A stretch of 10,872 nt of DNA from NCBI GenBank assembly GCA_001412365.1, contig LKUE01000038.1, positions 1-10,872 of the forward strand, in the 5' to 3' direction. This stretch comes from Desulfuromonas sp. SDB. Its GTDB lineage: Bacteria > SDB-A. The position numbers and the translations under genes are program-made. Shown in pieces: positions 691-10,306 of this stretch; the stretch's first letter is position 1; every line of letters begins with the position of its first letter. Under the pieces are notes generated by a model that saw only the letters and a list, made by a program, of their open reading frames with translations, had not been told where the DNA came from and did no database searches.

Positions 691-1884
691 ATGTCCAGAA
701 CTATAGTAGCAATGCCCGGAGACGGAATTGGCAAAATTGTAATTCCTGAGGCAATAAAACTGCTGGAAGCAGTTGGTTTTGAAGCTGATTACGTTCACGC
801 CGATATCGGATGGGAATTCTGGTGTAAAGAAGGCAATCCCCTCCCCGATAGAACCCTTCAGCTTCTGGAAAAATATAAAATTGCCCTGTTTGGAGCAATT
901 ACTTCTAAACCCAAGGATAAAGCTGCTTTGGAAATTGATCCCCGGTTAAAGGATAATGGATTTGTATATTACAGCCCGATTGTGGGATTAAGACAGCATT
1001 TTAATTTGGATATTTCCATCAGACCCTGCCGTTCCTTTAAAGGAAACCCTTTAAATTTCATTCGAAGAGGAAAACAAAATGATGTTGAAGAACCGATGGT
1101 GGATGCGGTAATTTTCCGCCAAAACACCGAAGGTCTTTATTCCGGGGTGGAATGGACTGATCCCCCCGACCAGGTATATGAAGCTTTAAAAACCCATAAA
1201 AAATTTACTCCTTATACCAGGGTGCCCAAGCAAGATTTAGCCATTTCCGTAAGGATTTTTACTCGTCAGGCAGTGGAAAGAATACTCCAAGCAGCTTTTA
1301 ACTATGCAAAAAAACACGGCTACAAATCAGTAACTATCTGTGAAAAACCCAATGTGATCAGAGAAACCTCAGGGATGATGAATACTATGGCTCAACAGAT
1401 AGGCAGGGAAAAATTCCCGGATATTGCTGTAAAATCAACTAATATTGACGCCCAGATGATGTGGCTTACAAAAAATCCAGAGATTTACGAAGTGATCGTA
1501 GCGGGTAATATGTTCGGGGACATCGTTTCAGATGGCTTTGCGGGATTAGTGGGAGGATTGGGTTTTGCCTGCAGTGCAAATATCGGAGAAGAAGTGGCAA
1601 TTTTTGAACCCACTCACGGTAGCGCTCCCAAATATGCTGAATATCCGGTTTCCATAGTAAACCCCTGCGCAATGTTTCTTTCTTCAGCGATGATGCTGGA
1701 TCATATCGGGGAAAATGAAAAAGCGGAAAAAATACGCCAAGCGGTAGCAAAGGTAGTTGGAGAGGGCAAAATCCGGACTTACGATATGATGAAATTATCC
1801 GGATCTCCCCAGGTCATCCAGCAGGGCGCAGCCACCACTTCGGAAATGACCGATGCAGTCATCAATGCAACTAAGGAGATTTAA
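691..1884 (+). CDS. Isocitrate dehydrogenase-like (isocitrate/isopropylmalate dehydrogenase family)
   Basis: This is a beta-decarboxylating dehydrogenase of 397 aa, the usual length for the family. ATG 691 follows a perfect AAGGAGG at 680-686. Landmarks by comparison with E. coli Icd: GDGIG at 10-14; substrate-binding S95, R101, R111 and R143; Y150; K219 and N221; metal-binding D253, D277 and D281 (GDIVSD); THGSAPKYA at 308-316. K314-Y315 match the Lys-Tyr pair that in E. coli Icd contacts the NADP 2'-phosphate; NAD-dependent relatives usually have Asp-Ile there. The Ser-x-Asn of true isocitrate dehydrogenases is Ser-Pro-Ile (95-97), so the substrate is less certain. With aconitases in the same operon the likely reaction is isocitrate to 2-oxoglutarate with NADP+. 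Homoisocitrate or a related 3-substituted malate is a possible alternative. Confidence 0.85.
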   Translation: MSRTIVAMPGDGIGKIVIPEAIKLLEAVGFEADYVHADIGWEFWCKEGNPLPDRTLQLLEKYKIALFGAITSKPKDKAALEIDPRLKDNGFVYYSPIVGLRQHFNLDISIRPCRSFKGNPLNFIRRGKQNDVEEPMVDAVIFRQNTEGLYSGVEWTDPPDQVYEALKTHKKFTPYTRVPKQDLAISVRIFTRQAVERILQAAFNYAKKHGYKSVTICEKPNVIRETSGMMNTMAQQIGREKFPDIAVKSTNIDAQMMWLTKNPEIYEVIVAGNMFGDIVSDGFAGLVGGLGFACSANIGEEVAIFEPTHGSAPKYAEYPVSIVNPCAMFLSSAMMLDHIGENEKAEKIRQAVAKVVGEGKIRTYDMMKLSGSPQVIQQGAATTSEMTDAVINATKEI

Positions 1885-1885
1885 C

Positions 1886-2452
1886 ATGAAAAATAAATTA
1901 AAAGATCTTTTCCAGGATTTACTTGATCTTATTGAAGACCGAGCTTTAGCGGATAAGGTAGTGGATGTATTAACCGATGCAGCTGAACAGGGTAATTGGC
2001 AACCTGAAGATTTGGAAAAAATTCCCTTCACCCTGCTCACCAACACTCAGGGCATCAACCTTATTGAACATACCAAGGCGGTTACCTATGCTTCTTTAGG
2101 TATTGCCGATGCTCTTGAAAAAGCTTATAAAAACCTGCCTTACTCCATCAATAGGGACTGGTTAATTGCCGGAGGGATACTCCATGATGTAGGAAAATTT
2201 ATTGAGATTGGCAGGGATGAGAATGGAAATTACATAAAAAGCCATCGGGGAAAACTCCTCCGTCATCCTATATCAGGAGCAATTTTAGCTGCCCACCACG
2301 GTTTGGGTGAAGAGATCCAGAATATTATTGCAAATCATGCCAAGGAAGGGGAAGGACGACCTCAGCGGATAGAAACAGTTTTAATTCATCAAGCTGATTT
2401 TGCTACTTTTAATCCCATGGTAATGATGGAGAAAAAAATATTAATAACCTAG
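1886..2452 (+). CDS. HD-domain metal-dependent phosphohydrolase (unknown substrate)
   Basis: This 188-aa protein uses the ATG at 1886, one base after the dehydrogenase stop and 6 nt after the SD AAGGAGA (1873-1879). A longer in-frame reading from 1853 would overlap the dehydrogenase gene and lacks its own SD. HD superfamily residues appear in the expected order: H62 (EHTKAV), H100-D101 (ILHDVGKF), H127 (LRHPISG), H137-H138 and H151, with a late D171 (HQADFA). This is an almost bare HD domain with a short N-terminal acidic helix region and no transmembrane or sensor domain, so a cytoplasmic enzyme cleaving a phosphate monoester, nucleotide or cyclic nucleotide is likely. The substrate cannot be read from the sequence. 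Its place between the dehydrogenase and aconitase genes is unusual and suggests a role linked to central carbon metabolism or its control; that is inference. Confidence 0.85.
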   Translation: MKNKLKDLFQDLLDLIEDRALADKVVDVLTDAAEQGNWQPEDLEKIPFTLLTNTQGINLIEHTKAVTYASLGIADALEKAYKNLPYSINRDWLIAGGILHDVGKFIEIGRDENGNYIKSHRGKLLRHPISGAILAAHHGLGEEIQNIIANHAKEGEGRPQRIETVLIHQADFATFNPMVMMEKKILIT

Positions 2453-2462
2453 AGGAGAGATT

Positions 2463-4283
2463 ATGGCTAATGATAAACCCCGCTCCTTAATTGAAAAAAT
2501 ACTAATCAATCACAGCGATGTTGATGATTTAAATCCCGGAGATATTGTCAATGTAAACATTGATGCCCGGGTTGCCAGAGACTTCGGGGGGGCAAATGTA
2601 GTAAACAATCTGGAAAAACATAATTTAACCATCCAGGACCCTCATAGAACCTTTTTCACCTTTGACTGCAATCCAGGAGGATCGGATCAAAAATATGCAG
2701 CCAATCAGCAACGGTGCAGAATATTTGCTCGAAATCAAAAACTCAAGATTTTCGACATAAATCAAGGCATAGGCACCCATCTGGCTATTGACCTGGGTTT
2801 AGTGTCTCCTGGTGGAACTTTTGTTTCAACTGACTCCCATGCTAATATCATCGGGGCAATAGGTGCCTTCGGACAGGGGATGGGAGATGTGGATATTGCT
2901 TCAGCCTGGGCTCATGGATCTGTTTGGTTTAAAGTCCCCCCTTCTATGAAAGTAACTCTAACTGGAAAACCCGGCAAATTTGCAACTGCCAAGGATATTG
3001 TACTGCGACTTCTTCAGCATTTCGGAGCAAACGGAATGCTGGGTTATGCAGTGGAGTACAGCGGAGATATAGTAGATCAGCTGAATTTATCTGACCGTAT
3101 AACCATTGCCAGCATGGCTACGGAGATGGGAGCAATCATCACTTTGTTCGTCCCCAATGCTGATATTATCAGATATCTTGAAGAGAAAACCGGCAAGCAG
3201 TTAAAAATTGTAAATGCCGATCCTGAATATGCATATCAGCAAGAGCAGACAGTGGACTTGGGAAATCTCAGACCCATGATTTCCCGACCGGGTCATCCCG
3301 AAGACGTTGTATCAATTGATGAGATCAGCAAGGTGAAGATTGACTCCGCATTCATAGGTTCCTGCACCAACGGCAGATTTGAAGATCTAGCCAAGGCAGC
3401 CCAGATATTGACCAACCGCAAAGTAGCTCCCGGAGTGGTATTAAAAATTGTACCGGCTACTGATAAAATTTGGAATAAATGTCTGGAAAAGGGAATCCTG
3501 GAAATTTTCAAAAAAGCAGGAGCATTAGTAGGAAATGCAGGATGTGCAGGATGTGCCGCCGGTCAAATAGGTCAAAATGGTCCGGGGGAAGTTACCATAT
3601 CCACCGGTAACCGCAACTACGCTGGGAAACAGGGCAAGGGTTCTGTTTATCTGGCTTCTCCGGCTACAGTAGCTGCATCTGCCATTGCCGGTTACATTGT
3701 ACCTGAAGATAAAATACCGGAAAAACCTGAAATATTCGTTAGTTCTGCAACTCTGGAATCTACCCACAAGATTACTCCTTCCGGTCCCCAACAGGAACAT
3801 CCCTTGGAAATAACAGGAAGAGTCTGGATTATAAATAAAGACAATATTGATACAGATATGATTTATCACAACAAACACCTGGCTATAACTGAAATTTCCG
3901 AGATGGGACAATATGCATTAGGTAACTTAGATGGCTGGCAGGATTTCCCTCAAAAATCTAAACCTGGTGACATCATTTTAACCGGAAAAAACTTTGGAGC
4001 AGGAAGCAGCAGACAACAGGCAGTTGATTGTTTCAAAGCCCTAGGTATTAGTGCCATCATTGCGGAAAGCTTTGGAGCAATTTACGAACGCAACGCCATA
4101 AACACCGGTTTTCCCATACTTACCTTAAAAACCAGGTTAAGTGAGTTAAATATTAACAACGGTGAGCAGATAAAGGTTAATTTAGAAAAAGGAACTGTAA
4201 TTAAATCAGATAGGACTGTTATTCAGATAAATCCGTTTAATACTGTACAAAAAGACATTTATCTAAGAGGTGGTTTGTTATAA
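2463..4283 (+). CDS. Aconitase-superfamily hydro-lyase, LeuC-LeuD-type fusion with altered active site
   Basis: This 606-aa protein has a large LeuC-like part (about 1-415) fused to a swivel LeuD-like domain (about 450-606). ATG 2463 follows GAGGAG at 2452-2457. The three [4Fe-4S] ligands are present: C301 in SCTNGR, and C361 and C364 in GCAGCAAG. The TDSH motif is at 123-126, the swivel-domain entry INKDNIDTDMIY at 457-468, and the active-site serine loop GAGSSRQQA at 512-520. Two usual features are changed: the Asp-His pair near residue 68 is Asp-Cys (FDCNPGG), and the SSREH/SSREQ loop is SSRQQ. The fold and cluster look functional, so this is a specialised paralogue rather than a broken gene. 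Candidate substrates are citrate/isocitrate, homocitrate, 3-isopropylmalate or another 2-hydroxy di- or tricarboxylate; the sequence does not decide. Confidence 0.85.
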   Translation: MANDKPRSLIEKILINHSDVDDLNPGDIVNVNIDARVARDFGGANVVNNLEKHNLTIQDPHRTFFTFDCNPGGSDQKYAANQQRCRIFARNQKLKIFDINQGIGTHLAIDLGLVSPGGTFVSTDSHANIIGAIGAFGQGMGDVDIASAWAHGSVWFKVPPSMKVTLTGKPGKFATAKDIVLRLLQHFGANGMLGYAVEYSGDIVDQLNLSDRITIASMATEMGAIITLFVPNADIIRYLEEKTGKQLKIVNADPEYAYQQEQTVDLGNLRPMISRPGHPEDVVSIDEISKVKIDSAFIGSCTNGRFEDLAKAAQILTNRKVAPGVVLKIVPATDKIWNKCLEKGILEIFKKAGALVGNAGCAGCAAGQIGQNGPGEVTISTGNRNYAGKQGKGSVYLASPATVAASAIAGYIVPEDKIPEKPEIFVSSATLESTHKITPSGPQQEHPLEITGRVWIINKDNIDTDMIYHNKHLAITEISEMGQYALGNLDGWQDFPQKSKPGDIILTGKNFGAGSSRQQAVDCFKALGISAIIAESFGAIYERNAINTGFPILTLKTRLSELNINNGEQIKVNLEKGTVIKSDRTVIQINPFNTVQKDIYLRGGLL

Positions 4284-4335
4284 GATTTTAAATGACTTTC
4301 AATAATTATCAGCGATTTAGGCAATAATTCAAAAC

Positions 4336-4342
4336 GGTGAGG
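4336..4342 (+). promoter_or_regulatory. Shine-Dalgarno that decides the start of the second aconitase
   Basis: GGTGAGG is followed 6 nt later by ATG 4349. It contains an in-frame GTG that would otherwise be taken as the start codon. The 65-bp gap from the previous gene (4284-4348) shows no terminator-like hairpin. Confidence 0.6.
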
Positions 4343-4348
4343 TTTAAT

Positions 4349-6127
4349 ATGGGTAAAACTTTTGTGGAAAAGATATTCAATGCTCCTGCCGGAAGCATTG
4401 TTTTTCATCAGCCGGATATCGTACTGTCCCATGACAATACTGCTTCTATTGCAAAAACTTTTTCCCAGATGGGCGGACAGAATATTAAATATCCTGACCG
4501 TTTACTGGTAGTTCTGGATCATAATGCTCCTCCCACCACTACAAAACTAGCCAATGACTATCAATTCATAAAAAATTTTGTCAAACAACAGGGAATAGGA
4601 AAATTCCACGGGGAAGGGGAGGGTATCTGCCACCAGGTAATGTCTTATTATGCCAAACCGGGAATGGTGATTGTGGGCAGCGACAGTCATACTTCCACCG
4701 CGGGTGCGTTCAATGCTTTTGCCGCGGGAATAGACCGGACAGAGACTGCAGGAATTTGGCTAAAAGGAGAAACCTGGTTCAGAGTGCCTGAATCAATTAA
4801 GATAGTATTGGAAGGAAAACTTTCTCCGGGAGTGTACTCCAAAGACTTAGCCCTATGGATTATCGGGATGATATCCTCTTCAGGGGCTAATTATCAAAGT
4901 GTGGAATTTCACGGACCAGGAGTGGAAACACTTACCATATCAGACCGCATGGTTCTGGCAAACCTTTCTGCGGAAATGGGAGCGAAAAATGCAGTATTTC
5001 CCAATGATGATATTCTCCAGGACTTCTTACAACAAGACATAAAAGGCACTTGGTCTGACCCCGACGCACACTATGACCAGGAAATTAAAATCAATTTAGC
5101 TGATGTCTTTCCAGTGGTTTCCGCTCCTCATCATGTGGATAATGTCAAAGCGGTTGATCAGGTAAAAGGCACTTTAATCAACCAGGTAGTAATCGGCACC
5201 TGTACCAATGGACGTATTGAAGATCTCCGCATTGCAGCGGAAATATTAAAAAATCAACAGGTTGATCCCGATGTGCTCATGGTGATAATACCAGCTTCCC
5301 GTAAGATTTTTCAGCAAGCAGCCAGAGAGGGTTTACTGGAAATATTTTCCCAGGCTGGAGCTACCGTAATGGTTCCTTCCTGCGGACCCTGTCTGGGTAC
5401 GGGGCAAGCATTGCCTGCAGATAACTGGAATGTAATTTCCACCGCTAACCGTAACTTTTTAGGTAGAATGGGAAATCCCCAAGCATCAATTTTTCTGGCT
5501 TCTCCAGCCACAGTAGCTAGTTCAGCAGTTAAGGGGAAAATTACTCCGCCTCCCGGAACTGAAAACCAAAATTCTTTTCCCCACACTCCTCCTCAAAGTG
5601 AAACAGTAAATATTCAATCCGGAGATGACCGGTATAATCAAGGAATCTGGGATTATTCAGATGTGGATAACCTAAACACTGATCAAATGTTTGCCGGCAG
5701 TTTAACCTACACCATTAAAAGTTCTGAGCCGGAAACTATCATCCCTCATTTATTTATGGGTCTTGATGGAAGCTTTGCCTCCCGCTTAAAATCCGGTGAC
5801 ATAATACTGGGAGGTGAAAATTTCGGCTGCGGCAGTTCCCGAGAACATCCTTCGGTAGGACTAGCTCACGCAGGAGTAAAAGCAGTAATAGTCAAATCAG
5901 TTGCCCGGATATTTTACCGAAGTGCGATAAACCAGGGTCTATTGGTGATAGTTGCTCCTCAGGCAGTTCAAGCTTATAAACCTGGTATTGGCATTGATAT
6001 TGATCCCCTCAATGGGAAAATTACCGTAGGCGATCAAACCATCCAAATCCCTCCCCTGCCTGATAAGCTTAAACAAATTATTGACGCAGGCGGACTTAAA
6101 AAGCTGCTTAAAAATTCAGGTAATTAG
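4349..6127 (+). CDS. Aconitate hydratase-like protein, LeuC-LeuD-type fusion
   Basis: This is a 592-aa aconitase-superfamily enzyme. I chose ATG 4349 because GGTGAGG (4336-4342) sits 6 nt upstream as its SD; the in-frame GTG at 4337 lies inside that SD. The catalytic set looks complete: D57-H58 (VLDHNAPP), H95 (GICHQV), SDSHT at 111-115, C285 (TCTNGR), C345 and C348 (SCGPCLG), and GCGSSREHP at 493-501. A proline-rich linker (about 399-418) separates the large part from the swivel domain (about 430-592). The length and one-chain layout match the compact bacterial aconitases that resemble fused isopropylmalate isomerase. With the dehydrogenase in the same operon, citrate-isocitrate isomerisation through cis-aconitate is the most likely role. 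Homoaconitase or isopropylmalate isomerase activity remains possible. It is clearly a paralogue of the protein encoded just upstream. Confidence 0.87.
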   Translation: MGKTFVEKIFNAPAGSIVFHQPDIVLSHDNTASIAKTFSQMGGQNIKYPDRLLVVLDHNAPPTTTKLANDYQFIKNFVKQQGIGKFHGEGEGICHQVMSYYAKPGMVIVGSDSHTSTAGAFNAFAAGIDRTETAGIWLKGETWFRVPESIKIVLEGKLSPGVYSKDLALWIIGMISSSGANYQSVEFHGPGVETLTISDRMVLANLSAEMGAKNAVFPNDDILQDFLQQDIKGTWSDPDAHYDQEIKINLADVFPVVSAPHHVDNVKAVDQVKGTLINQVVIGTCTNGRIEDLRIAAEILKNQQVDPDVLMVIIPASRKIFQQAAREGLLEIFSQAGATVMVPSCGPCLGTGQALPADNWNVISTANRNFLGRMGNPQASIFLASPATVASSAVKGKITPPPGTENQNSFPHTPPQSETVNIQSGDDRYNQGIWDYSDVDNLNTDQMFAGSLTYTIKSSEPETIIPHLFMGLDGSFASRLKSGDIILGGENFGCGSSREHPSVGLAHAGVKAVIVKSVARIFYRSAINQGLLVIVAPQAVQAYKPGIGIDIDPLNGKITVGDQTIQIPPLPDKLKQIIDAGGLKKLLKNSGN

Positions 6128-6129
6128 TT

Positions 6130-6681
6130 ATGAAAATTGCTGCTTTAGTTGCAGATGGTTTTGAAGAAATTGAATTAATTTCAGTAATTGATTTACTGCG
6201 GAGAGCTGAAATTAAAACAGAAATCTGGGGATTGAACCAGCTGCAGTTTTCAGGAGGACATAATATAAAGTTAATTGCAGATAAAATTTTTCCCCCTGGG
6301 AACAGTACTGAAATTGACGGTCTATTTCTTCCCGGAGGCAAGCAGGGAGTGGAAAACCTGGTTAATTCTCCTCCTGTTTTAAATTTAATTGAAAACCTTT
6401 ATAATAAACAGAAATGGCTGGTGGCTATATGTGCAGCTCCTTTTGTACTGGAAACTGCGGGGGTGCTTCAGGGAAAAACAGTCACCATTTATCCCGGATG
6501 GGAAAGCAAATTAATAACCGCTGCGCGTGTTGTAAATCAACCGGTGGTTATTGACGGCAAAATAGTAACCAGCAGAGGGGTAGGAACTGCTTTAGAACTG
6601 GGATTAACTCTGTGCAGGCTATGGTGCGGACAGGATCAAGCAGATTATCTGGCTTCTGCTATACTTTATGATCAAAGATAG
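6130..6681 (+). CDS. DJ-1/PfpI family protein (YajL/DJ-1 type)
   Basis: This 183-aa single-domain protein starts 2 bp after the aconitase stop. It has the DJ-1 fold landmarks: an N-terminal strand followed by DGFEEIE, with E15 at the position of the conserved acidic residue that hydrogen-bonds the active cysteine; the nucleophile elbow AICAAP with C101; and SRGVGTALELGL at 148-159. The DJ-1 position that is His126 in the human protein is Tyr (Y121). Family members have been assigned chaperone, deglycase/glyoxalase-like or redox-sensing roles, so the biochemical activity here is open. No signal peptide is seen, so it is cytoplasmic. It is the penultimate gene of the run, and its stop codon abuts the next start codon. 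Confidence 0.9.
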   Translation: MKIAALVADGFEEIELISVIDLLRRAEIKTEIWGLNQLQFSGGHNIKLIADKIFPPGNSTEIDGLFLPGGKQGVENLVNSPPVLNLIENLYNKQKWLVAICAAPFVLETAGVLQGKTVTIYPGWESKLITAARVVNQPVVIDGKIVTSRGVGTALELGLTLCRLWCGQDQADYLASAILYDQR

Positions 6682-7299
6682 ATGAAGATATTGATATCAC
6701 TAGCAGGATTAGAAGTATCTTCAAAAACGGTTAAATCCTTAGCTGATGATTCTGATTTTATTATTGCCGCCGATGGCGGATATCTACCCCTGGAGAAAAA
6801 CAACATCCAGCCAAATTTAATCATTGGGGATTTTGACTCAGTGAGTATTGAAAATTTTTCCAGTTCAGTTGAAGTGATTAGACATCCCCGGGAAAAAGAC
6901 AAAAGTGATGGGGAACTGGCGGTGGAATTGGCTTTAATGAAAAATCCCCGTACAATCATACTCACCAATGCCCTGGGATTAAGACCTGATCAGTATCTTG
7001 CCAATTTAATATTAACAATTAACCATCCAGGTTTAGTTGAAATAGTTGATGATAACTGGATCATCAAGGCTTTGACCGGACCTGTTGACTGTTATCTGCA
7101 AAAACTTGATTCTGGCAAATTAATTTCCATTTTTGCCTGGGGAAAAGAAATTACCGGATTAAGTTTAACCGGTTGTAAATATTCTGTTAATGAAATTAAC
7201 CTTTATCCGGGCACCCGGGGATTGAGTAATGTTATTGAAAGCAGTGAAATCCGGATTTCATTCCAATCCGGTACAGCTCTGTTATTTACAGAATACTAA
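6682..7299 (+). CDS. Thiamine pyrophosphokinase family protein (divergent)
   Basis: This 205-aa protein begins directly after the DJ-1 stop (TAG then ATG), so it is probably translationally coupled. Family motifs in order: AADGG at 29-33; the metal-binding GDFDS at 49-53; EKDKSDGELAVEL at 71-83, the usual D-x-[ST]-D-x-E motif; and a C-terminal beta domain ending with PGTRGLSN (176-183), in place of the common GTSN-type thiamine-site strand. The motif normally seen as G-G-R-x-D-H is changed to G99-L100-R101-P-D103-Q104, so one Gly and the His are lost. The family converts thiamine plus ATP to thiamine pyrophosphate, the cofactor of 2-oxoacid dehydrogenases. Activity in this variant is likely but less certain. 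Its stop overlaps the stop of the opposite-strand gene. Confidence 0.85.
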   Translation: MKILISLAGLEVSSKTVKSLADDSDFIIAADGGYLPLEKNNIQPNLIIGDFDSVSIENFSSSVEVIRHPREKDKSDGELAVELALMKNPRTIILTNALGLRPDQYLANLILTINHPGLVEIVDDNWIIKALTGPVDCYLQKLDSGKLISIFAWGKEITGLSLTGCKYSVNEINLYPGTRGLSNVIESSEIRISFQSGTALLFTEY

Positions 7300-7757
7300 A
7301 AATCCCTCCGGTCAATTTTTTTTACTCCAGTAGCTAATGAACTTACATTAAATAATTTCCAGTATCCATCCTGGTTCTTTTTAAGATGTACCGGAGATGG
7401 ATTATCCTTACCTCCGCTTCGAATAAATATCTTGGATTCCCACTCCCCCTGCTCTGAGTTAGTTTCCATATCCAGGGGAAAATCATATTGGTAATGATAG
7501 TTATTATCAGGGGTACCCCCCAAATAAGATTTGGCGCAATTGCCCTTATCTTTCTTGAAATATTCCAGAAAAGCATTTCTACCCGGAGTTCCGTCATTGA
7601 GGAGATAATTTTTAGGCAAGGTCAAAGCTATCATTTTGTTTCCTTTATCCTCATCTTCCAGGTATTCAATCACCCCGATCAAAAATGCTTTAATCGCCCC
7701 CAATTCGCTTTTTCCCCATTTCTGCTCCCATTGCTGCTTGAATTGCTGATATTCCAT
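7296..7757 (-). CDS. Hypothetical protein resembling the DUF6935 group
   Basis: This is a 153-aa soluble protein without signal peptide or membrane helix. ATG 7757 has a purine-rich AGGGGT just upstream. The N-terminus is a charged, amphipathic helix rich in Gln, Lys and Trp (about 1-35). It is followed by a region with KMIALTLPKNYL (41-52), RNAFLEYFKK (60-69), and SYLGGTPDNNYHYQYDFP (77-94), ending in a beta-rich stretch with KIFIRSGGKDNPSPVHLKK. From memory this pattern recalls small proteins grouped as DUF6935. The function is unknown and I could not confirm the match. Its 3' end overlaps that of the thiamine pyrophosphokinase by 3 nt, tail to tail. It lies 53 bp downstream of the secreted propeller gene on the same strand. 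Confidence 0.7.
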   Translation of the reverse strand: MEYQQFKQQWEQKWGKSELGAIKAFLIGVIEYLEDEDKGNKMIALTLPKNYLLNDGTPGRNAFLEYFKKDKGNCAKSYLGGTPDNNYHYQYDFPLDMETNSEQGEWESKIFIRSGGKDNPSPVHLKKNQDGYWKLFNVSSLATGVKKIDRRDF

Positions 7758-7770
7758 TTATACCCCTATT

Positions 7771-7794
7771 GTTTAATTGACCAATAATTTAAAC
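7771..7794. repeat. AT-rich interrupted palindrome between two minus-strand genes
   Basis: Within the 53-bp gap 7758-7810, the core ATTGACCAAT is a 4-bp inverted repeat, flanked by GTTTAA on the left and TTAAAC on the right, which pair imperfectly around it. No T-run follows on the minus strand, so it is not a convincing terminator. It could be an operator or chance. Confidence 0.3.
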
Positions 7795-7810
7795 TTGCCT
7801 GACCCAACCA

Positions 7811-9328
7811 TCATTTTAAAATAATCATTCTATCCGAGTTTAAACATATCCCGGATGAACACATTTCAACAATGTAAATTCCCGAGGGTAAACCAGAAAT
7901 ATCCAAAGTGGTTTCATTTCTACCCTGGAGTAAAAAACCAAGTTCCCGGCTACCCCATAATCTGCCATCGCTTCCGTATATGTTAAGCTTAACCTGATGT
8001 GGTTCTGTTAAAATTAATACTGCTACTGCATAAGCATTAACTGGATTATTTAATATTTGAATTTCATTTCCATTACTAACCCTAATTTCTACCGGTTGTT
8101 CATTTACTTGATTGCCTTCTCCCTGATATGCTCTTATATCTGTACCTCTGCCGCATAAAGCCAAAGTACCATCATATCCCAATGCCGGTCCACTAACTCC
8201 CTGTATATACTCTTTCCAACGCAGAGAAAGATCCGGATTAAAGGAATAAACCGTATCATCGGAGCTGACCCATATCCTCCCCGATCCGTCCACCGCCATT
8301 CGGGTACTTATACCCGCCTGCACATTCTGAGAAGTATCTATAATCAATCCATTGTCCGGATTAATTCTTATTACTTCTCCACTCCGGCTGTAGCTGTAGA
8401 CACTGCCATCGGGACCAACTGCAAACGATGAAAAGGGTACATATCCCAATTCAACCTGCCATTTCTGAATTAGCTGACCTCCGCTGTCCTGGAAGGCGAC
8501 CAGATAATCAGTGGAAGGATTATTCTGTGATCTGGGTGCGTAAACAGTGCCATCCGGTCCCACCAATAGTCCCACCTGTTGAATATATCCTCCTCCCACC
8601 GGATTACTTTGATAAAGATAAATACCGGTGGACAAATCATAGACATTTACAGTAGGACCACTTGCCCCTGCCGTCCATCCGTACACTTTTCCATTGAATA
8701 CTGCAACCTGTGAACCCCCACTGGTGGGAGAATTTCGATTTACTGTCCAAACATTGCTGCCATCACTGGCATTAATCCGGATAATTTGGTTGAAATTCCC
8801 TATAACCAGATCACCATTGGGGGCAAAGGTTAGTCCTTCCGTACTGGATTCATCTATTAAATCTATTGATTTCCAAAGTTGGGATCCATCTACCGCATTC
8901 AGTGCATATAGATATGTTGCATTAGTATTTCCCGCCCGTGAAACATAAACCACGCTGTCTCTTATTGCAGAGACATGGTTTCTCCAGTCAGTTGAGGGAA
9001 AATCCACTGGTAAATCTGCTGACCATAATTCAGTGCCGCTATGAAGATCATAGGCATATATATAGGTGCCATGAAGAACATCATTTAAATTAAAACATCT
9101 CGCCACTGCCACAAGATCTCCGTCAATCACCGGTTGCCAGGCTATAACCGAATAAGCCCCCCCCTGCCATAGTTTAGTAGTATCTCCAGGTCCAAGTGAA
9201 GAGTTATACCCGAAACGGGCTGGTCTGCCCCCACATCCAACATTCCATTGATCAGCCAGGATAATATCAGAAGGAAATAAATAAAGATTAAATATTACAA
9301 CCGCAATAACCATAAATGTTTTACTCAA
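7811..9328 (-). CDS. Secreted PQQ-like beta-propeller protein with T9SS-type C-terminal tail
   Basis: This 505-aa protein uses the TTG start at 9328, because GGAGG lies 6 nt upstream; the next ATG is codon 6. A signal peptide is clear: hydrophobic residues 5-24, probable cleavage after A25 (IILA-DQW). The body (about 40-400) has repeated blades ending in the PQQ-like pattern Y-[AV]-x-[DN]-x-x-[DS]-G-x-x-x-W, e.g. YAYDLHSGTELW, YALNAVDGSQLW, RINASDGSNVW and YSFNPDLSLRW. This suggests a seven- to eight-bladed propeller. The last 80 residues match the type IX secretion sorting-domain pattern: NPVN at 428, KLNIYGSDGRLWGSREL, then LPSGIYIVEM and MIILK at the end. It is therefore probably exported and surface-attached or released. 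No enzyme residues are evident; a binding or structural role is likely. Confidence 0.85.
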   Translation of the reverse strand: MSKTFMVIAVVIFNLYLFPSDIILADQWNVGCGGRPARFGYNSSLGPGDTTKLWQGGAYSVIAWQPVIDGDLVAVARCFNLNDVLHGTYIYAYDLHSGTELWSADLPVDFPSTDWRNHVSAIRDSVVYVSRAGNTNATYLYALNAVDGSQLWKSIDLIDESSTEGLTFAPNGDLVIGNFNQIIRINASDGSNVWTVNRNSPTSGGSQVAVFNGKVYGWTAGASGPTVNVYDLSTGIYLYQSNPVGGGYIQQVGLLVGPDGTVYAPRSQNNPSTDYLVAFQDSGGQLIQKWQVELGYVPFSSFAVGPDGSVYSYSRSGEVIRINPDNGLIIDTSQNVQAGISTRMAVDGSGRIWVSSDDTVYSFNPDLSLRWKEYIQGVSGPALGYDGTLALCGRGTDIRAYQGEGNQVNEQPVEIRVSNGNEIQILNNPVNAYAVAVLILTEPHQVKLNIYGSDGRLWGSRELGFLLQGRNETTLDISGLPSGIYIVEMCSSGICLNSDRMIILK

Positions 9329-9636
9329 TTATATCCTCCCCTCGTAATTAAAAATCAAAGGGACTTTTTAAATTTTTTTTATTTTATTTTTCAATCCCAA
9401 AACCAGCGAGCTAACCAGCATAATAAATGAAACCGGAATAAATATAAATTTTTCTGTACTTGTTTTTGCAGTTAAATTAGCAAATATATTTAATAAAAAA
9501 TAAACTGCCATAAACCATATTATTATCCCTGCTAATTTCTTCAATCTAATAATTTTTATTAAATCAGCTTGAATTGCGGTAACTAAGATCATAGATAAGG
9601 TAATAACCAGAGCAAAGCTTTCATATAATATTATTG

Positions 9637-9836
9637 TTATGGACAAGAAATCAACTGCACCGGATCTGAATGCAGATAAAATTTGCCATGCTCACTGCAT
9701 TCAAAGATTGTATGAGCGCCAATAAGTGACAACGGTGCCCTACATACGGGACAAACAAAGATGGCTTCGTTCTTGTCTCGGTCGCTCTGTAGAACCCATC
9801 ATAGACACGCTGAGGAGTAATCTCATGCAAACTCAC
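9637..9836 (-). pseudogene. Second cassette zinc-ribbon gene, divergent, needs a frameshift
   Basis: A GTG at 9836-9834 has a perfect AAGGAGG (9849-9843) 6 nt upstream and opens MSLHEITPQRVYDG. From 9795 the next frame reads VLQSDRDKNEAIFVCPVC, then RAPLSLIGAHTIFECSEH and GKFYLHSDPVQLISCP. That is a convincing zinc ribbon (C29-x2-C32 and C47-x2-H50 in the joined protein). The switch falls at GGG 9797-9795: one extra G, or a -1 slip, would give an intact 66-aa protein. The second frame has no start codon of its own before the first cysteine pair. Its TAA stop is 9639-9637, formed by the cassette's left edge (TTATGG), so the two cassette genes both end in CCATAAC. It could be decayed, a sequencing error, or recoded. 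Confidence 0.5.
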
Positions 9837-10049
9837 GTCTCGCCTCCTTGCCAAAAATGTTTACAACAAGTATGCATTGACAAGCCGCCACTTAATGGGC
9901 GAAAAGGAATGTACTACATTTGCCAACACTGTGACTATCCTAACATTGTGCTGTCCCGCAAGAACAGTTTCACGTTTGCACCATATGACAGTAAACTGAA
10001 CAAACAGTCTGAATACTATGACCCCGAATACTTATCTGGCACACCATAA
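9825..10049 (+). CDS. Cassette-encoded small zinc-ribbon-like protein
   Basis: This 74-aa protein starts at ATG 9825, with the SD GAGGAG (9812-9817) 7 nt upstream. The frame is open back to GTG 9726 but that start has no SD. Cysteines occur as C9-x2-C12 and C33-x2-C36 (PPCQKC and YYICQHC), separated by 20 residues with an extra C17, as in a zinc ribbon. The C-terminal half is hydrophilic and tyrosine-rich (SEYYDPEYLSG). No membrane segment is seen. The stop TAA (10047-10049) lies inside the R'' box of the attC site, the usual arrangement for an integron cassette gene. I do not recognise the protein; a nucleic-acid- or protein-binding role is only a guess. Its 5' end overlaps the opposite-strand cassette gene by 12 nt. 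Confidence 0.62.
   Translation: MQTHVSPPCQKCLQQVCIDKPPLNGRKGMYYICQHCDYPNIVLSRKNSFTFAPYDSKLNKQSEYYDPEYLSGTP
9843..9849 (-). promoter_or_regulatory. Shine-Dalgarno of the minus-strand cassette gene
   Basis: AAGGAGG on the minus strand lies 6 nt before the GTG at 9836. It lies within codons 7-9 of the plus-strand cassette gene, whose own SD (GAGGAG, 9812-9817) lies within the minus-strand gene. Confidence 0.5.
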
Positions 10050-10095
10050 CAATTCAATGCAGATGACGCGACTCGTCGCGCATCTGATCTTGGCG
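10044..10095 (+). repeat. attC recombination site (chromosomal part; last 6 nt of R' are at 9637-9642)
   Basis: In the circular form the site is 58 nt. R'' is CCATAAC (10044-10050) and R' is G10095 plus TTATGG, a perfect 7-bp pair. Then come unpaired 6-nt spacers on each side (AATTCA and CTTGGC). The L boxes follow: AT, an unpaired G, then CAGATG on the left, pairing with CATCTG-AT on the right. Next are an unpaired A, a CGCGA/TCGCG stem and a CTCG loop. Two extrahelical bases, the unpaired central spacers and the AAC/GTT ends are the hallmarks of folded attC sites, and 58 nt is close to the classic 59-base-element size. R boxes of the usual RYYYAAC form are deviant here (CCATAAC), but their symmetry is exact. 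Confidence 0.82.
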
Positions 10096-10306
10096 ATGAA
10101 TAATCAGTTAAATTACCTCCCCAAACAATTTCCGGAGGTAATAACTTTATTAACACTAATAAATGAATAATAATCAGCAGAAACAAGCTTATCAACAGTA
10201 TATATCCTGAGATTTTTACAACTGATGAAGGTTTCATAAGCAAATTTTAAATTATGGTTAATATTCTGGCAACTAAAAGCTTGTTGTATATTTTTATATT
10301 AATGAT

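Follow-up and report, generated by a model that had tools for sequence, protein, structure and literature searches.

So far, integron cassettes are known to have entered secondary sites on a few resistance plasmids and in E. coli laboratory experiments. The clearest single cassette within a gene and outside an array is, according to PMC11213556, the dfrA14 cassette in strA of pCERC1 and its relatives (Ojo 2002; Anantham and Hall 2012). Insertion at attG sites is reported from E. coli experiments (Loot et al. 2024, Nat Microbiol 9:228, as described in PMC12901181, PMC12444791 and PMC11023631), and cleavage at a G^AT triplet has been described for secondary sites (PMC10127599). Clusters of attC sites lacking an integrase (CALIN) are defined by at least two attCs; IntegronFinder 2.0 omits single-attC CALIN by default, while acknowledging that true positives may be among them (PMC9024848). 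In Xanthomonas, each CALIN away from ilvD groups two or more attCs and occupies a conserved locus (PMC12444791). The mechanism and kind of insertion discussed here are thus already known. The addition made here is a multi-site case that occurs naturally in the chromosome of an uncultivated lineage and comes with empty-site controls.

The locus very probably arose from the action of an integron integrase, which inserted a free circular cassette into a secondary (attG-type) site within a chromosomal gene for a four-helix membrane protein. As with dfrA14 in strA, one cassette that retains its attC and belongs to no array splits a gene at a secondary site and leaves the gene halves intact. Whereas the strA case belongs to a plasmid resistance locus of enterobacteria, the gene here is chromosomal, the bacterium is uncultivated, the cargo is unrelated to resistance and the genome holds several strays. 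In common with attG insertion as reported, cassettes enter the genome at many loci other than attI and attC; in contrast to the E. coli experiments described there, the present record is natural, and the genome encodes an unusual IntI of its own. An attC without an adjacent integrase is shared with the single-attC CALIN of IntegronFinder 2.0, but exact junctions and a restored gene validate the present site. The genome also resembles Xanthomonas in having cassettes on the chromosome elsewhere than beside intI, although here they are single.

The window, i.e. the whole stretch of 10,872 nucleotides that was analysed, is contig C38 of a 3.14-Mb genome in 433 contigs with 98.7% completeness and 3.9% contamination. 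The tetranucleotide profile of the contig agrees with that of the genome (0.94), and the flanks of the cassette match the genome composition. The phylum is represented by four genomes in the genome collection, the other three of which belong to another genus of the same family. Elsewhere in the window (2463-6127), tandem fused LeuC-LeuD/aconitase-like proteins of 606 and 596 aa are encoded, which are 35% identical; none of the three same-family genomes contains a match to the first of them. The features of the locus and of the related loci are collected in the table.

Table. Positions of the inserted cassette, the interrupted gene and other cassettes of the genome (^, junction or cut point)
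Feature	Sequence	Position	Strand	Description
Complete integron gene cassette	window	9637..10095	+	459 bp; boundaries G^TTATGG and GGCG^ATGAAT; antiparallel to interrupted gene; foreign composition; single copy
Left junction	window	9636..9642	+	target G, then cassette R' box, G^TTATGG; R' is the perfect reverse complement of R''
Right junction	window	10095..10101	+	cassette-end G, then target, G^ATGAAT
attC of cassette	window	10044..10095	+	R'' CCATAAC, spacer AATTC, L'', hairpin, L', spacer TTGGC, then G; circle supplies remaining R' from 9637-9642
Cassette ORF	window	9822..10049	+	74 aa from ATG, span includes stop; GAGGAG upstream; two CxxC pairs, zinc-ribbon-like; TAA in R'' box
Short frame	window	9639..9725	+	ATG inside R' box; ends at TAA 9723-9725; same frame reopens until TAA in R''
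Zinc-ribbon-like frame CPVC...CSEHGKFYLH	window	9640..9798	-	no canonical start; stop adjoins R' box; zinc-ribbon matches sub-threshold only
Interrupted gene, 5' part	window	10096..10237	-	ATG, 47 codons and one base; helix 1
Interrupted gene, 3' part	window	9368..9636	-	about 89 codons; helices 2-4; stop
Cassette array	L012 (C253)	1444-8692		TIR-domain protein, AAA_15/OLD-like ATPase, DUF4145, DUF4062, RecG-C-like HTH protein; defence-like cargo
Lone cassette C421	L067	2790-3160		ATTATATTG^TTAGAA...CCGCAG^ATTAATTG; target G^AT; between S4-domain gene and next gene
Lone cassette C184	L063	3779-4404		GNAT acetyltransferase cargo
159-bp piece after C184 cassette	L063	4405-4563		ends G^ATG of next gene; no attC
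Lone cassette C67	L062	55-694		attC 46.8 bits

The block at 9637-10095 differs from its surroundings in composition, with a GC content of 45% compared with 32% in the left and 25% in the right flank. Its tetranucleotide correlation with the genome backbone is 0.18, compared with a minimum of 0.50 among 100 same-size stretches of the contig, and a whole-genome search found no second copy. The left boundary lies at a G^TT (9636/9637), and a single attC at the 3' end provides an R'' box (CCATAAC, 10044-10050) complementary to the R' box (GTTATGG, 9636-9642), as in an integron gene cassette; the block is a complete one. Exact excision yields a single minus-strand ORF with an ATG start, encoding a protein of 136 aa (MKPSSVV...KNKIKKI) with four hydrophobic helices, and the break falls after codon 47 plus one base. 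The earlier note had described a GC-rich block of this length and position, junctions with only a G in common, perfectly complementary R''/R' boxes and an in-frame fusion to a four-helix protein on exact removal, all of which was confirmed.

Shuffling both flanks 20,000 times produced a frame as long as the fused one across the junction in 3 cases. In addition, both halves have an excess of T at codon position 2 in the same frame (0.53, compared with 0.28-0.36 in the other frames). Searches of the phylum, 18 other genomes, plasmids, phages and viral contigs gave no homologue of the fused membrane protein, the weak matches being inspected and judged to be due to chance. Because the interrupted gene has no detectable homologue in the relatives and collections searched, the fused frame serves as the evidence for interruption, and a direct empty site of this gene was not seen. 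Neither half carries a further lesion, suggesting that the insertion is fairly recent, and the gene was presumably functional before it.

In the closed circle the attC reads CCATAAC-AATTC-AAT-G-CAGATG-A-CGCGA-CTCG-TCGCG-CATCTG-ATC-TTGGC-GTTATGG. R'' and R' are paired, the central spacers are unpaired, and the L stem has one extra base on each side of a six-pair stretch, so that the extra-helical bases have the same six-pair spacing as those of the class 1 integron attC of aac(6'); one mismatched L-box pair counts against the assignment. A descriptor of attC anatomy gave the closed circle a score of 17, within the range of 13-18 seen for attested class 1 attCs. Among 77,425 shuffled closed circles the highest score was 16, as it was in 53 Mb of shuffled window sequence. 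The pair descriptor found no match in the linear window because R' sits at the opposite end of the cassette, which makes the closed circle the right test. The bottom strand of the circular attC folds with -14.4 kcal/mol (z -3.8).

Two covariance models were also applied. The first, R1, was built from 15 attCs, two of them in this genome's array and the others from class 1 plasmids and environmental intI loci, with the insert excluded. Its best match in the window is at 10044-10101 on the plus strand, exactly at the insert, with 23.1 bits (E 0.0012), a score obtained on the linear form, where target sequence stands in place of R'; the next match has 6.6 bits. The second, R2, was trained without the attC of the insert and partly on other attCs of this genome, and gave 27.2 bits. 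No second attC near the insert was found in the window by R1, and the locus falls outside the definition of a CALIN. Rfam held no matching family. A descriptor match of score 16 inside the intI coding strand received no support from the covariance model and was judged to be due to chance, and a genome-wide scan for the pattern TAACAATTC was uninformative.

The cassette ORF is compact, oriented as the attC and ends at R'', like those of typical cassettes. Family searches gave no match for its 74-aa product, and no homologue was found among plasmids, viral contigs and 84,980 genomes. The frame starting at 9639 may belong to a longer cassette gene that a single stop interrupts, or two genes may be present. 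On the opposite strand, the frame at 9640-9798 has the sequence CPVCRAPLSLIGAHTIFECSEHGKFYLH and is probably a remnant. The cassette may thus carry two divergent zinc-ribbon genes, one of them decayed.

A search of the genome for intI, which the earlier note had proposed along with an attC model and a search for other attC copies, returned a single integron integrase, beside the cassette array of contig C253 (L012:61-1305). The protein of 414 aa scores 396 bits with TIGR02249 (cut-off 265), and alignment with IntI1 shows that the tyrosine-recombinase residues are kept; together with the IntI-specific region, this identifies it as an integron integrase. The nearest relatives found, from groundwater-type Nitrospirae and Deltaproteobacteria, are 54-59% identical across the aligned set. 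They also have the N-terminal extension, about 100 residues long, that distinguishes the protein from IntI1. The contig consists of intI and cassettes only, with no chromosomal anchor, and could in principle be foreign because the assembly is fragmented and carries some contamination. Its array contains R'/R'' pairs that are perfect (GTTGGGC/GCCCAAC, GTTATGT/ACATAAC and GTTGGAA/TTCCAAC), which the perfect match in the insert resembles. A gene-less mini-cassette is found in the same array at about 2346-2513 of L012.

Genome-wide, the attC search returned 15 matches with R1 and 17 with R2. In the three same-family genomes, R2 gave 0, 0 and 1 (E 7) matches, a contrast that is supportive and not independent, as R2 was partly trained on this genome; no integron integrase was found in these three genomes at E 1e-30. 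The matches on C253, C233, C363 and C223 look like arrays. Lone cassettes are present on at least three other contigs (C421, C184 and C67), two of them at inferred G^AT targets, and C35 and C348 are possible further cases. The 159-bp piece that follows the C184 cassette encodes a peptide resembling the start of the C421 cassette protein, with 52% identity over 29 residues, and on account of this resemblance it is probably an eroded second cassette. Excision of the combined stretch (3779-4563) gives the target TTTG^ATG, a G^AT.

Both the C421 and the C184 insertion are intergenic, and both loci have a counterpart in the three same-family genomes, which lack intI. The genes flanking C421 are adjacent there without a cassette, with a gap of about 80 bp in two genomes (G002 and G003) and about 235 bp in the third (G001); the gap in the present genome is 92 bp once the cassette is subtracted. 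The genes flanking C184 are nearly adjacent and without a cassette in all three. These loci are natural empty sites at the gene level, the exact junctions not being alignable across genera.

The target restored in the window is ATTATTG^ATGAATAAT, a G^AT and hence a G^WT site, and no target base is duplicated; it lies outside attI and attC, as is characteristic of secondary (attG) sites. The predicted uninterrupted junction is TATAATATTATTGATGAATAATCAG. The attI adjoining intI reads CAGTAAAATATAAATG^TT, and the array starts on C233 and C223 share GTAAAATATAWATG with it; the targets of the lone cassettes are AT-rich and end in TG or TTG. The window has 782 G^WT sites, 39 of them in the local AT-rich stretch. 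Models that include the array starts of the genome place the window target at rank 4-5 of the former and 1-3 of the latter, whereas a model from the lone sites alone places it 48th; the ranking is suggestive only and is confounded by AT-richness. The copies of the left half of attI (GTAAAATATAWATG^TT) at array starts lie on contigs without intI (L064, C233, reverse strand 2925; L066, C223, about 3380), and are possibly second attI copies or cassettes with attI pieces.

In the proposed course of events, the integrase would pair the folded bottom strand of the cassette attC with the double-stranded target TATTATTG^ATGAATAAT and cut the target between the G and the following base. The product would be ...G^TTATGG(cassette)GGCG^ATGAA..., formed without target duplication, with the gene split after codon 47. 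The lineage's own IntI, or a direct ancestor of it, is the most likely agent, because the same genome has intI and an array as well as lone cassettes outside the array. The earlier note had held that an integron integrase of this lineage put a cassette at a non-attI locus. The G^AT target, the attC, intI and the other strays bear this out as far as the insertion is concerned, and the lineage's enzyme as the agent is what we infer from them.

A different integron integrase, past or transient and borne for instance on a plasmid, might have made the insertion, leaving the C253 integron a bystander. The diversity of the attCs in the genome, which points to cassettes from many sources, and the unanchored C253 contig would both agree with this. 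It is nevertheless rather unlikely, as just one integron integrase in the genome scores above the cut-off and an AT-rich left half ending in TG is common to the array entry sites and the window target; the high rank of that target with the array-entry models points the same way, subject to the low rank with the lone-site model and to AT-richness. It is still less probable that the flanks never formed one gene and that the cassette entered an intergenic AT-rich stretch, the fused frame being a coincidence. The fused protein is without a homologue in the collections searched and the C421 and C184 cassettes did enter intergenic sequence, but a fused frame of 136 codons is rare in shuffled flanks, the codon-position bias runs in the same frame on both sides and the four hydrophobic helices are well formed.

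That the block is an assembly chimera of a metagenome-derived genome could be argued from the 433 contigs, the 3.9% contamination and the foreign composition of the block itself. However, a chimera would have had to join at exactly the integrase cut points on both sides, the flanks match the genome, and the pattern repeats at other loci with flanks syntenic in relatives, which makes this explanation highly implausible. A miniature transposon (MITE) or another insertion element could likewise have short inverted end boxes and a small ORF that is not conserved. Such an origin is scarcely credible for a single-copy block that caused no target duplication, whose boxes belong to a single asymmetric attC at one end and pair inside it, whose attC is matched by the covariance model and whose ORF has its stop inside R''.

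Insertion of a cassette by an integron integrase into the membrane-protein gene is the reading retained, and it concerns a phylum that is uncultivated and thinly sampled. With at least four independent strays at exact junctions, one of them intragenic, and intI-free relatives with empty sites, the reshaping of genomes by integrons outside arrays and the choice of targets become measurable. Tools that drop single attC sites by default would probably miss such cases. More tentatively, the lineage may scatter cassettes routinely, its IntI with the extended N terminus using AT-rich, attI-like G^WT sites across the genome. Cassettes would then act as dispersed single-gene insertions that deliver genes near host promoters and inactivate host genes.
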